Made by a program: the position numbers and the translations under genes. DNA of 26,334 nt from a virus. A model generated the notes under the pieces. That model worked only from the letters and a program-made list of their open reading frames with translations. It was not told the origin of the DNA and searched no databases. Positions 3,287 to 9,922 of this stretch are shown here, piece after piece. Location: positions 1-26,334 of the IMG/VR virus record IMGVR_UViG_3300030202_002049. One strand, written 5' to 3'. Numbering within the stretch: position 1 is the first letter of the stretch; each line of letters opens with the position of its first letter.

Positions 3287-3582
3287 ACAATAACATCTTC
3301 TCTTTTATAAGAATTGAAATCTATTACATTTGACTTACTGTTTTTTATTTTAACTGTGACTTTCTTTGTCTTTGAATTTTTTTGTGGTTTACTGTGAATA
3401 CTGTATATGTCATTGGTATCATGGAGAAATTGTGGACCAAGCTCAACGTAACCAAATTGAACTCCATTGAGTAAAGCAAAAATAGTTGATTGATATAACT
3501 TGAATTGACTAGGCGTAAGTTTCCCAGCTGCCAACACACTCAGCTTTGTTAAATCAGTGATACCACCCTTTTTCTCTGCCAT
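3283..3582 (-). CDS. Small hypothetical protein, basic C-terminal half
   Basis: The product is 99 residues. The N-terminal half (TDLTKLSVLAAGKLTPSQFKLYQ) is helical and ordinary in composition. Residues about 68-90 are rich in lysine and serine. No family is recognised. The start lies within the last 29 bases of the upstream zinc-motif gene, in another frame, and its stop overlaps the next start. Confidence 0.6.
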   Translation of the reverse strand: MAEKKGGITDLTKLSVLAAGKLTPSQFKLYQSTIFALLNGVQFGYVELGPQFLHDTNDIYSIHSKPQKNSKTKKVTVKIKNSKSNVIDFNSYKREDVIV

Positions 3583-4918: not shown

Positions 4919-5008
4919 TTACGATTTTTCATTATTCCAAAGCATTAATAAAAATATAATAAAACCATAAATCAAAGCAATTAGTAATACATTCATTAAA
5001 AAAATCAT
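4919..5008 (-). CDS. Tiny membrane peptide, 29 residues
   Basis: A 29-codon frame begins MIFLMNVLLIALIYGF and ends MLWNNEKS. It is one long hydrophobic helix with a short polar, charged tail, as in small phage membrane peptides. Its ATG overlaps the stop of the methyltransferase gene (ATGA), the same coupling used between many genes here, which is the main reason to believe it. No family is recognised. Confidence 0.5.
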   Translation of the reverse strand: MIFLMNVLLIALIYGFIIFLLMLWNNEKS

Positions 5009-6063
5009 AACCTATCTTCCTCGATTAGAACTTGTTTTATAGCAAGACCTAGGATTCTTGCACATTGTGGAACGATTGCATTACCTAAACTTTTTATTCT
5101 GTTGGATCTATCTTTGTCCAATTCTTTGGAAATCCCATTAGGAACTCCACAAATGTTGGATTGAGTCTGCCACCAGGTTTGTTGTCCTTCAGTACTGTTC
5201 TCGGTAAATTTTTCTCTAGACTGTCTTTCCAAGTCGGTTGATATGCTGCGTCTTTGTAATCCCTTTGTTTCGGTGTTGGAAACATTTTGTCCTTCTCTAT
5301 CTTGTTCACTACATCGTTCAACTTTGCTCCGAATTTTTTGCCAGTCCCAACCCTCGTTACACTCCAACCTGATGAATTCTTTTTCACTGTCTCTGGTGGG
5401 GCTACTACATCCATATTGCAACTCGCTGCTGGTGTTGGATACATTGCCATTGTTTGTGGATCCATTTGTTCTCTCAGATTCGATGGTTTGGTTCTGCCCT
5501 TTCTTTGACCCTCCATTAATTTCTTTGTCCCTTGAACGCTTCTCGGAGGCAAGTAATCCATTGTGTTTGGAGTGGCCAATAATCCAGACTCTGTTTCTTT
5601 GATGCCAAGCACCGATGCCTGAAGCTGGAATAAGGAAACATTGGACTTCGAAACCTTCACCTTCCAATTGGTCTTGCACCTGTCGGAGTACCATGCCGTC
5701 TTGGAGGTTAATAAGGCCTTGCACATTCTCCCCAATAACGAATTCTGGTTTAATCTCTTTAATGAGTCTAAACATTTCTGGCCAGAGATATCTGTTGTCA
5801 TCTGTTCCTTTTTGTTTTCCTGCAACACTGAATGGTTGGCATGGGAATCCTCCAGTAATGACATCTGCTTCGAATTCTTGTCCTTTGACATTTCTTATAT
5901 CTCCTTCTATTGGTATATTTTTAAAATTCTTTTGTAAAACTTTCTGACAAAATTTATCAAACTCTACAAACTTTACTGTATCAAATATACCAGTGGAATG
6001 AAGACCTAAACTAAAGCCTCCAATACCACTGAATAAATCTAATACCTTAAGTTTATTGTTCAA
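5005..6063 (-). CDS. dcm: Cytosine-5 DNA methyltransferase
   Basis: The enzyme transfers a methyl group from S-adenosylmethionine to carbon 5 of cytosine, probably protecting phage DNA from restriction; no partner nuclease gene is seen nearby. The 352 residues carry the family motifs in order: I (VLDLFSGIGG, 7-16), IV with catalytic Cys75 (GGFPCQPFS), VI (ENV, 112-114), VIII (QRNR, 155-158) and X (SLGNAIVPQ, 325-333). The region between VIII and X, the target-recognition part, is low in complexity and repeats VSNT-type segments. The start codon is TTG at 6063, since no ATG precedes motif I; it overlaps the upstream gene. Residues 58-323 are overlapped by a second reading frame. Confidence 0.93.
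   Translation of the reverse strand: MNNKLKVLDLFSGIGGFSLGLHSTGIFDTVKFVEFDKFCQKVLQKNFKNIPIEGDIRNVKGQEFEADVITGGFPCQPFSVAGKQKGTDDNRYLWPEMFRLIKEIKPEFVIGENVQGLINLQDGMVLRQVQDQLEGEGFEVQCFLIPASGIGAWHQRNRVWIIGHSKHNGLLASEKRSRDKEINGGSKKGQNQTIESERTNGSTNNGNVSNTSSELQYGCSSPTRDSEKEFIRLECNEGWDWQKIRSKVERCSEQDREGQNVSNTETKGLQRRSISTDLERQSREKFTENSTEGQQTWWQTQSNICGVPNGISKELDKDRSNRIKSLGNAIVPQCARILGLAIKQVLIEEDRL
5094..5891 (-). CDS. Overprinted protein inside the methyltransferase gene, MGFPxxW family
   Basis: This 265-codon frame lies wholly inside the methyltransferase gene, same strand, different frame. Three things argue that it is translated. AAGGAG lies nine bases before its ATG. The frame stays open for 798 bases. 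The product looks like a protein family I recall next to phage cytosine methyltransferases: SLLGRMCKALL (51-61), TNWKVKV (74-80), three TP repeats (ATPNTMDY 106-113, YPTPAASC 151-158, FPTPKQRDY 204-212) and a closing GRLNPTFVEFLMGFPKNW (241-258). Function is unknown; a role with the methyltransferase is suggested by position. The family match is from memory and not confirmed by a search. Confidence 0.7.
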   Translation of the reverse strand: MSKDKNSKQMSLLEDSHANHSVLQENKKEQMTTDISGQKCLDSLKRLNQNSLLGRMCKALLTSKTAWYSDRCKTNWKVKVSKSNVSLFQLQASVLGIKETESGLLATPNTMDYLPPRSVQGTKKLMEGQRKGRTKPSNLREQMDPQTMAMYPTPAASCNMDVVAPPETVKKNSSGWSVTRVGTGKKFGAKLNDVVNKIEKDKMFPTPKQRDYKDAAYQPTWKDSLEKNLPRTVLKDNKPGGRLNPTFVEFLMGFPKNWTKIDPTE

Positions 6064-7491: not shown

Positions 7492-7627
7492 GCATAAGTG
7501 GTCAGCCCAGTTAATGACCCATGGTGGATGTAACACTGAAATGCTTAGGATAGAGTCTGATATTAAGTCTACAAGAAATAGTCTTAAGTATCAGGATGTA
7601 CAAGAAAATTTAGCTGCAGCCAGTTAA
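7445..7627 (+). CDS. Small coiled-coil hypothetical protein
   Basis: From ATG 7445 the product is 60 residues (MSPKKIELLKQLQHLEHKW...), mainly helical, with possible heptads at both ends. GAGG lies nine bases before this ATG, favouring it over the ATG at 7430. It overlaps the previous gene by 47 bases and converges tail to tail with the homing endonuclease gene, sharing the last four bases. Confidence 0.6.
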   Translation: MSPKKIELLKQLQHLEHKWSAQLMTHGGCNTEMLRIESDIKSTRNSLKYQDVQENLAAAS

Positions 7628-8040
7628 TTTTTCTTAGGTTTTATAAAAGGAAACTTTTTACCTAGGGCTTCTGTCGGCTTTTTAAATTCATAATGATTTA
7701 TAATCTGTAATAATTTTGGTCTCTTAGTAATACTATAAGGTAAAAATAATTTAGCTAAGTGTAATGCTTTTTGATGTGAGCATCTCCATCTCCATTGATC
7801 TTTTTTACCTAATGAACCCTTACCTATCCCTTTGAAATGAATAGAACCAACTTTAACAATATCATAAAAGTTTTTTATACAATCTAAATCAGTCATGGCA
7901 ATTTCCATTGCTACATTCCATTTTAAATATATTTTATTTGATTTTATTTTTTTGCATTTATATTGTGCATAATTTATATTACCTTCACCATCAAATAATC
8001 CTGCAGCATAAGCAATCATATCCTGGTTATTATGTGGCAT
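7624..8040 (-). CDS. LAGLIDADG-type homing endonuclease, free-standing
   Basis: The product is 138 residues from ATG 8040, which lies seven bases past the polymerase stop. MIAYAAGLFDGEGNI (residues 8-22) is a LAGLIDADG motif, with the acidic metal-binding residue in the DGEG part. Only one motif is present, so the enzyme would work as a dimer. A later YFFxW-like core and the SHQKALHLAKLF helix fit the family. Such enzymes cut allele DNA that lacks the gene and so spread themselves. A start further upstream (8061 or 8088) would overlap the polymerase gene. No intron or intein is seen in the polymerase. Confidence 0.75.
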   Translation of the reverse strand: MPHNNQDMIAYAAGLFDGEGNINYAQYKCKKIKSNKIYLKWNVAMEIAMTDLDCIKNFYDIVKVGSIHFKGIGKGSLGKKDQWRWRCSHQKALHLAKLFLPYSITKRPKLLQIINHYEFKKPTEALGKKFPFIKPKKN

Positions 8041-8047
8041 ATTTTTT

Positions 8048-9922
8048 TTATTTAGCATCTCCCCAACTTTCTCCAAGTCCATATTCAACTACACTTGGTA
8101 CTTTAAATTCAATTGTGTTTTGCATTAAAGATTGTATCTCTTTTGCATGTGCTTCATCCTTAATGTTAAAACAAAGTTCATCATGTATTTGTAACATAGG
8201 TAGATGACCAGCATTATAACAATCTAACATTGATTGTTTTGTTTGATCAGCTGAAGATCCTTGAATTAATCTGTTTAATGCTTTGTAGGTATATGCTCTT
8301 TTAATATTATCTTTACCATACTTGGCTACTGCATCTTCATATTTTTCTGCCTGATGTAAACCAAAGTCTCTTGTTTCCCACATATCAAATCTACATTTCC
8401 TACCTTTTTTAGTTCTAATAACCCCTTTCTCATCTGCTGCATACTTACATCTATCTGAAAGTTTTTTAACAAAGGGTACTTTCTTATTGTACTTAATAAT
8501 TAATTCATTTGCTTCATCTTTACTAACACCTAAAGAATTAGCTAATTTGTTTTTACCCATTCCATACATCAAGCCTAAGCCAATTGTTTTTGCTTGAGTT
8601 CTATCTATACCAACTAGATCTGCAACTGTTTGATGAAAGTCTGCACTTGCATTTTGGTAAGCTTCTACCAATTCATTTGATCCTTCATAACCATCTCCAA
8701 TAGAAGCTGCATAATGTACAGTCATTCTAGGTTCTTGTTGTGAGTAGTCAAAACTTCCCCATTTATGCCCTTCTTCTGGGATAAAGAGACTTCTTATTTT
8801 AGGACCAAAGTCTTTGTTTCTAGATGGTACTTGTTGTAAATTTGGATTACTCATTGAAAGCCTACCAGAAACAGTCCCTCCATTATCTCCTCTTAACTGA
8901 TTTATCTCTCCATGTATTCTCCCATTAACTTGGTATTTCATAATAGAGGATAAAAAAGTTCCATGAAATTTGTTCACTTCTCTTGCACTTACAATTAGTT
9001 GTGCTATTTTGTTTTTATTATTAATCAACCAATTTTGTGTAAAGGAAGGTTCTTTTGTTTTTTCGGTTCGTGGATATTCTAACTTCAATTTGTCAAAAGC
9101 TTTGGCAATCTGGCGGGGTGCCCAAATATCTATTTCTATTCCTGTTTCTTTCTGTATATCCAATAGTATTTCTTTTTCTTGGAGCTTCATTTCTTTTTGT
9201 AATTCTGCAGCTTTTTCCACTTGCACTCTCACACCTCGTTGACGCATCTTTATTAATATCGGAAGCAGTTGCTGCTCCATTTCCCATACAGTGGTTAAGC
9301 TCTGTTGAGCTATTTCGTGTTTAAATCTTTGCCATAGTTTCAATGTAAGTTCTGCATCTTGTTCTGCATAATAACCAACATGCTCAGCTGGTAACTTCCA
9401 CATCTCTGCTTTTGGATCTATACCATGTGCTGCTGCAGCTTCTCTTAGTTCTGTCTCAGCTTTTATCTCATTTAAATAATCTACAGATAATGCATTCAAA
9501 GAATATGAAAATCTATTCTCATTTATTAATGCAGCTGCAATCATTGTATCAACTATAGGTCCGTGAACCTTGATACCAGATGCTTCTAGCCAACCCACAT
9601 CGTATTGAGCATTATGAAATATTTTAGTGTTAGGTAAGGCACATACATCCTTCATATATTTTTTTACTTGTTCAGGTATCATGTTGCCACCACCTAGATG
9701 ACCAAATGGAAAATAACCTTTCCATCCTTCAACGGCTACTGCAAACCCTACAATCTCACCTTTACCTAAAGCCCAACCAGCTCCAAGTCTTTCATTAATA
9801 CCATCGTCTCTAGTCTCTAAGTCAATAGCTATTTCTTTATAACCAGATAAATCCTTATACTCACTAGGTGTATTCCACATTGATTTTTTAAATGTAAGTG
9901 TTAATTGCAATCCGTTACTCAT
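8048..9922 (-). CDS. polA: DNA polymerase, family A, with 3'-5' exonuclease
   Basis: This is the replicative polymerase of the phage. The N-terminal proofreading domain carries Exo I (D34, E36), Exo II (N104 to D108) and Exo III (Y185 to D189). The polymerase domain has motif A (FDYSQQEPR, D392), motif B (R441, K445, L449, Y453) and motif C (HDE, 580-582). The 624 residues lack the 5'-3' exonuclease of bacterial Pol I, as is usual for phages. L449 aligns with Phe762 of E. coli Pol I; phage enzymes with leucine here have been linked to slower, more faithful synthesis and often temperate life. It lies downstream of primase and helicase genes and directly before a homing endonuclease gene. Confidence 0.96.
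   Translation of the reverse strand: MSNGLQLTLTFKKSMWNTPSEYKDLSGYKEIAIDLETRDDGINERLGAGWALGKGEIVGFAVAVEGWKGYFPFGHLGGGNMIPEQVKKYMKDVCALPNTKIFHNAQYDVGWLEASGIKVHGPIVDTMIAAALINENRFSYSLNALSVDYLNEIKAETELREAAAAHGIDPKAEMWKLPAEHVGYYAEQDAELTLKLWQRFKHEIAQQSLTTVWEMEQQLLPILIKMRQRGVRVQVEKAAELQKEMKLQEKEILLDIQKETGIEIDIWAPRQIAKAFDKLKLEYPRTEKTKEPSFTQNWLINNKNKIAQLIVSAREVNKFHGTFLSSIMKYQVNGRIHGEINQLRGDNGGTVSGRLSMSNPNLQQVPSRNKDFGPKIRSLFIPEEGHKWGSFDYSQQEPRMTVHYAASIGDGYEGSNELVEAYQNASADFHQTVADLVGIDRTQAKTIGLGLMYGMGKNKLANSLGVSKDEANELIIKYNKKVPFVKKLSDRCKYAADEKGVIRTKKGRKCRFDMWETRDFGLHQAEKYEDAVAKYGKDNIKRAYTYKALNRLIQGSSADQTKQSMLDCYNAGHLPMLQIHDELCFNIKDEAHAKEIQSLMQNTIEFKVPSVVEYGLGESWGDAK

Follow-up and report, generated by a model that had tools for sequence, protein, structure and literature searches.

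Two-polypeptide C5-cytosine methyltransferases are known. Lee, Kam and Shaw are said to have reported in 1995 that, in M.EcoHK31I, the gene for the larger chain also specifies the smaller one in an alternative frame, and M.EaeI is another enzyme of two polypeptides. In M.EcoHK31I, the larger chain holds motifs I-VIII and X and motif IX stands alone on the smaller chain; the recognition domain is predicted in the larger chain, not in the smaller one (PMC3404938). M.AquI likewise consists of two chains, the first of which holds catalytic motifs I-VIII (PMC3404938).

A literature search returned no paper describing dual coding in phage methyltransferases. Both frames of such loci are annotated as genes in Paenibacillus phages Bloom (gp56/gp57) and Lily (gp62/gp63; 'g62 internal gene'), whose records state no relation between the two, and also in E. 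coli phage K1G ('Mte8-like'). The P. larvae phage paper gives gp62 and gp63 both as methyltransferases, and the passages on them hold no comment on their overlap.

From motif content and codon-level rates, it is proposed here that one stretch of viral DNA very probably encodes both chains of a two-polypeptide C5-cytosine methyltransferase, a catalytic subunit (motifs I-VIII and X) and a recognition subunit (repeat modules and motif IX).

Locus and coordinates

The window analyzed was a 26,334-nt stretch of IMGVR_UViG_3300030202_002049, a virus contig of ~26 kb. The C5-cytosine methyltransferase gene, encoding the proposed catalytic subunit, lies at 5005..6063 on the minus strand (352 aa, TTG start; motifs I-VIII and X, without motif IX). 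All features of the locus given below are on the same strand. A previous sequence-only reading of the window had described a 265-codon ORF nested wholly within this gene, and its position, frame and length proved exact (5094..5891; 265 aa, ATG at 5891, stop ending at 5094; +1 frame). The Shine-Dalgarno sequence AAGGAG was found at 5901..5906, 9 bases upstream of this ATG, as that reading had given it. Also recovered were the catalytic Cys75 of the methyltransferase frame, within motif IV (GGFPCQPFS; 5827..5853), the three TP repeats of the embedded protein (LATPNTMD, YPTPAASC and FPTPKQRD) and its C-terminal end, GRLNPTFVEFLMGFPKNW (also given as RLNPTFVEFLMGFPKNW). The two 15-base blocks pointed out earlier were exact as well (AATGTTTCCAACACC and AATGTATCCAACACC). 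The block at the junction of modules 1 and 2 (5431..5445) is read as MYPTP in the overlapping frame, the block at the junction of modules 2 and 3 (5272..5286) is read as MFPTP, and both are read as NVSNT in the main frame.

Elsewhere in the window, a 154-aa ORF (7624-8088, minus strand) that overlaps the DNA polymerase gene (8048-9922) at the latter's 3' end resembles a LAGLIDADG homing endonuclease by eye.

Coding evidence for the embedded frame

The methyltransferase frame by itself was used to retrieve 80 viral loci. The +1 frame was open for ~200-417 codons in these loci, except in those cut by a contig end, and the +2 frame was far shorter. Stop codons in the shifted frame of relatives, which had been named beforehand as evidence against dual coding, were looked for, and the frame was open in every complete relative. 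A Shine-Dalgarno-like site (4 or more bases) was present at the first ATG in 68 of 69 near relatives, against a background of 29% for ATGs of these genes overall. At 32 near-relative loci the embedded frame runs 125-170 codons past the methyltransferase stop, and these extensions have ordinary codon periodicity (80/45/253).

Substitutions were counted in pairs made up mostly of marine phage relatives of the window. Counts at main-frame positions 1/2/3 were 111/78/294 outside the overlap, an ordinary gene pattern, and 1081/465/770 inside it. The fastest sites in the overlap were the embedded-frame third positions (main-frame position 1), and main-frame third positions were slowed. Over the whole overlap, two-frame counting gave dN/dS values of 0.17 (95% CI 0.13-0.21) in the embedded frame and 0.36 (0.26-0.46) in the main frame.

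An open frame could also be a by-product of methyltransferase protein conservation, codon usage or DNA repeats. In 20,000 synonymous shuffles, which preserve the window's methyltransferase protein, no +1 ORF reached the length of the real one (mean 86, max 222 codons). Scored against a profile of distant relatives, shuffled +1 proteins averaged 61 bits, which shows that the similarity is partly forced and lends the by-product reading some support; the real +1 protein, however, scored 183 bits, compared with at most 110 bits for 2,000 shuffles. Chance or a codon-usage artefact was ruled out by the synonymous shuffles and the codon-position rates, and RNA or DNA-repeat constraint by the fastest sites being embedded third positions and by the extensions beyond the gene. 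With main-frame first positions fastest and third positions slowed, and with the frame continuing past the methyltransferase gene, an origin as a by-product is barely credible. To judge from these rates, the overlap is real coding sequence with the embedded frame under purifying selection, and the earlier claim that both frames are protein-coding is borne out at the codon level.

Catalytic frame and linker

The main-frame protein matched PF00145 (E=2.5e-54) and belongs to the C5-cytosine methyltransferases, with motifs I, IV (PCQ), VI (ENV), VIII and X in one fold and the invariant residues present. HhaI and HaeIII folds were the top PDB matches of the main-frame model, with homology limited to residues 5-167. 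AF2 gave a pLDDT of about 90 for the catalytic core and about 25-40 for linker residues 183-310 (5134-5517). Motif X (RIKSLGNAIVPQ; 5065..5100) follows immediately past the end of the overlapping ORF.

At the linker's place, a typical C5 methyltransferase has its target-recognition domain and then motif IX. In the window, the stretch after motif VIII that stands in place of the recognition domain (5206..5583) is unconstrained and predicted to be disordered, and the motif IX profile detected motif IX in 0/123 main-frame proteins. A single-chain C5 methyltransferase would combine a recognition domain with motif IX in one polypeptide, which the main frame does not do. The sequence-only reading, which had placed all methyltransferase motifs in the main frame and regarded the enzyme as complete, was wrong on the first point and unsupported on the second: motif IX is located in the second frame, and an unconstrained linker occupies its place in the first.

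The substitution counts were further split into regions at motif marks. Region-wise SS sites were few, and the ratios, which therefore rest on NN/NS and NN/SN, indicated constraint on both frames in the segment of motifs IV-VIII (embedded 0.14, main 0.06), an embedded value of 0.19 (0.12-0.27) versus a main-frame dNN/dSN of 1.02 (0.83-1.54) in the segment after motif VIII, and constraint on both frames again in the segment preceding motif X (0.20 embedded, 0.37 main). The main-frame linker is stop-free; shuffles of the embedded codons predicted 7.4 stops in the window's linker, and none of them left it stop-free. Because the linker is stop-free, carries no amino-acid constraint and has low pLDDT, the main frame appears to be translated through it, with the amino acids there hardly mattering. 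The earlier proposal that the 15-base repeat serves both proteins holds insofar as it is read in both frames, but only PTP is constrained and VSNT is not.

Embedded protein family and motif IX

Relatives were gathered by tblastn and profile searches. The embedded protein matched 72 phage records (191 when a compact relative was used as query), 217 viral contig stretches and 300 bacterial genome stretches. Record titles named Bacillota, Bacteroidota, Acidobacteria, Chloroflexi, Nitrospirales, Verrucomicrobia, Alphaproteobacteria and others; the dual-coding arrangement is found repeatedly among phages and prophages from many bacterial phyla. Five identical dual-coding gene copies were seen on one chromosome of a Roseovarius MAG (L199-L203), and several matching places in Paenibacillus alvei (G007).

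That the second frame belongs to a conserved phage family, as the sequence-only reading had it, was confirmed by a match to phrog_1008 (E=1.4e-25; positions 30-282 of 329), labelled 'DNA methyltransferase' in PHROGs. Embedded-frame proteins are matched by phrog_1008, phrog_31772, phrog_26627 and phrog_27243, two of which are labelled DNA methyltransferase and two unknown; since the four families carry differing labels on the same frame, database annotation mixes the two frames.

The N-terminal part of the proposed recognition subunit (5580..5891) overlaps motifs IV-VIII, and helices and a beta-hairpin are predicted for it in a weak model. It is followed by three proposed recognition modules. 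Module 1 (LATPNTMDYLPPRSV...; 5442..5579) is 53% identical over 45 aa to a module of L260, a Brevibacillus-family genome, and modules 2 (YPTPAASCNMDVV...; 5283..5441) and 3 (FPTPKQRDYKDAA...; 5169..5282) were assigned by repeat and module comparison.

The C-terminal pattern of the embedded frame, L-N-P-x-x-V-E-x-L-M-G-F-P-x-x-W-T, is that of C5-methyltransferase motif IX, which was assigned in the window to RLNPTFVEFLMGFPKNWT (5115..5168) by two profiles. The motif IX profile, built solely from single-chain actinophage and plasmid enzymes, scored 12.9 bits in the window's embedded frame; among the embedded frames of relatives, 91/123 scored above 8 bits and 65/123 passed i-E<0.01, the motif being short. 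The IX-X profile, made from single-chain and split proteins, matched plant C5 methyltransferases of the DRM2 type in the PDB with modest significance (E=0.007; LEPDEVEMLLGFPKNHT aligned). PDB sequence searches gave no match with the embedded protein and nothing relevant with a single IX-X sequence. The AF2 model of the embedded protein alone was poor (pLDDT 60, pTM 0.27); it had no fold match, and its Foldseek hits were meaningless.

Single-chain, split and extended relatives

In Gordonia and Mycobacterium phages and a Tsukamurella plasmid, a single chain in one frame was found to run from motifs I-VIII through LLPTPxxxDG repeats and RLxxAFxEWMMGxPxGWVT to motif X. Profile-profile comparison of the embedded family with these enzymes gave a probability of 97.5 (E=7.9e-12) over the repeats and motif IX, and a repeat of Gordonia phage Lton shares 68% identity over 28 aa with a module of the split form in L225 (Brevibacillus). 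In L225 and L260 (both Brevibacillus-family), the first ORF ends right after motif VIII, and the embedded ORF continues through the modules, motif IX and motif X. Where the overlap is lost, this second ORF has a normal codon pattern (33/23/89; motif X part 18/11/39).

The embedded ORF has its own start, its own constraint and a named phage family, phrog_1008, all of which would suit an independent accessory phage protein (e.g., anti-restriction or regulatory) that merely overprints the methyltransferase. Such a protein would leave the main frame a methyltransferase lacking both recognition domain and motif IX. Motif IX and the modules stand in-frame in the single-chain methyltransferases, the embedded protein is fused to motif X in L225 and L260, and stand-alone copies of the ORF were found at none of the 80 bacterial loci kept, where the methyltransferase was in the partner frame or split (L225). 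An accessory protein is accordingly improbable. Judged by its motifs, the embedded ORF is the methyltransferase's own missing part and not an unrelated second protein, because motif IX, absent from the main frame, ends the embedded chain, because in single-chain actinophage enzymes TP-x-D repeats and motif IX follow motif VIII and precede motif X, and because L225 and L260 fuse the embedded protein to motif X. The idea of an independent protein printed over a complete methyltransferase, as first put forward from the sequence, was given up on these grounds. A lack of homologues outside methyltransferase gene shadows had been named in advance as counting against the second frame. Homologues of the embedded ORF are numerous, but the lack of stand-alone copies comes near to that outcome; this leaves dual coding unrefuted, since the evidence for it at the codon level is direct.

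The motif order of the single-chain relatives is exactly that expected from programmed frameshifting, in which ribosomes would enter the +1 frame near motif VIII and return before motif X to yield a single actinophage-like chain. Two shifts would be required, the embedded ORF has a conserved Shine-Dalgarno site and ATG, and a stop-free main-frame linker would not be needed. The embedded frame is already conserved ahead of any point at which a shift would be useful, within motifs IV-VIII (0.14), and the linker is kept open. Frameshifting is therefore the less likely course and is considered highly improbable; separate translation of two chains is preferred.

Several relatives depart from the common arrangement. 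In L025 (2001-3599), L163 (1673-3298) and about 30 other loci, a C-terminal extension was observed that adds another TP-x-D repeat as well as a helix-turn-helix-like segment. This segment matches the recognition region of the Bacillus phage CM1 C5 methyltransferase (profile comparison of the extension, 93%, E=2.9e-7) and also occurs in the recognition region of the Staphylococcus phage Alsa_2 N4/N6 methyltransferase. RhoGAP and thioredoxin-like Pfam matches of the extension were below cut-off and were discarded. In L206 and L261 (Brevibacillus), both frames are rearranged, and the embedded ORF holds QRKRVFVVGN, which is main-frame motif VIII in relatives. The rumen MAGs L220 and L230 carry, at ~3430-3540, opposite single-frame indels that fall at about the same repeat and swap halves between the frames; this exchange was set aside as evidence, as the opposite indels are likely assembly errors or decay, odd as the coincidence is.

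Proposed two-polypeptide enzyme

Dual coding and the domain assignment are established at the level of sequence. In the proposed mechanism, the main frame would be translated into the catalytic chain (motifs I-VIII, disordered linker, motif X), and the +1 frame, from its own Shine-Dalgarno site and ATG, into a second chain composed of the N-terminal domain, the TP-x-D modules and motif IX. The two chains would join as one enzyme, in which the second chain may fill the target-recognition place between motifs VIII and X and the modules may recognise the DNA target. The enzyme would methylate phage DNA, probably against host restriction.

TP-x-D modules occur whether the enzyme is overlapped, split or single-chain. 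A modular and swappable recognition subunit is put forward tentatively, as a possibility somewhat less likely than not: each TP-x-D module might read a part of the target, phages of different phyla might trade modules with one another, and the catalytic frame might have been reduced to a tolerant linker, so that specificity could evolve without touching the catalytic chain. If the modules do read DNA, they would constitute a natural swappable recognition system for C5 methylation.

If the two-polypeptide proposal is true, a common class of phage 'cytosine methyltransferase' is mis-annotated. Gene callers often retain one frame, and databases call the other unknown or methyltransferase. Codon-optimised recoding of the annotated gene would abolish the second subunit unnoticed, and enzymes of this kind may for that reason have been recorded as inactive. 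The locus is also an unusually clear long overlap, in one segment of which selection acts almost only on the embedded frame.

Comparison with known systems

By analogy, the two-polypeptide principle has a precedent in M.EcoHK31I. In both, the large chain holds motifs I-VIII and X with motif IX on the small chain, and the organization reported for M.EcoHK31I likewise has the large gene coding for the small chain in an alternative frame. Unlike in M.EcoHK31I, repeat modules are present on the small chain here, and the large chain has an unconstrained linker and no recognition domain. The predicted position of the M.EcoHK31I recognition domain, in the larger chain, counts against the present proposal. 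Because that domain lacks a counterpart here, the locus is classed as one that would work like M.EcoHK31I and not as a member by descent.

L225 and L260, with motifs I-VIII followed by modules, motif IX and motif X, resemble M.AquI, and only in these two do motifs IX and X stand together on the small chain. Unlike M.AquI, the window keeps motif X with the catalytic chain and nests the second chain in the other frame. In Gordonia phages Lton and Derg and Mycobacterium phages Wachhund and prophiGD91-2, too, these repeats and motif IX separate motif VIII from motif X, but their enzymes are encoded in one frame as one chain. What is new relative to the known enzymes is the breadth of the family, the proposed modular recognition subunit and the free linker; a further difference is that the enzyme exists in overlapped, split and single-chain forms which share modules.
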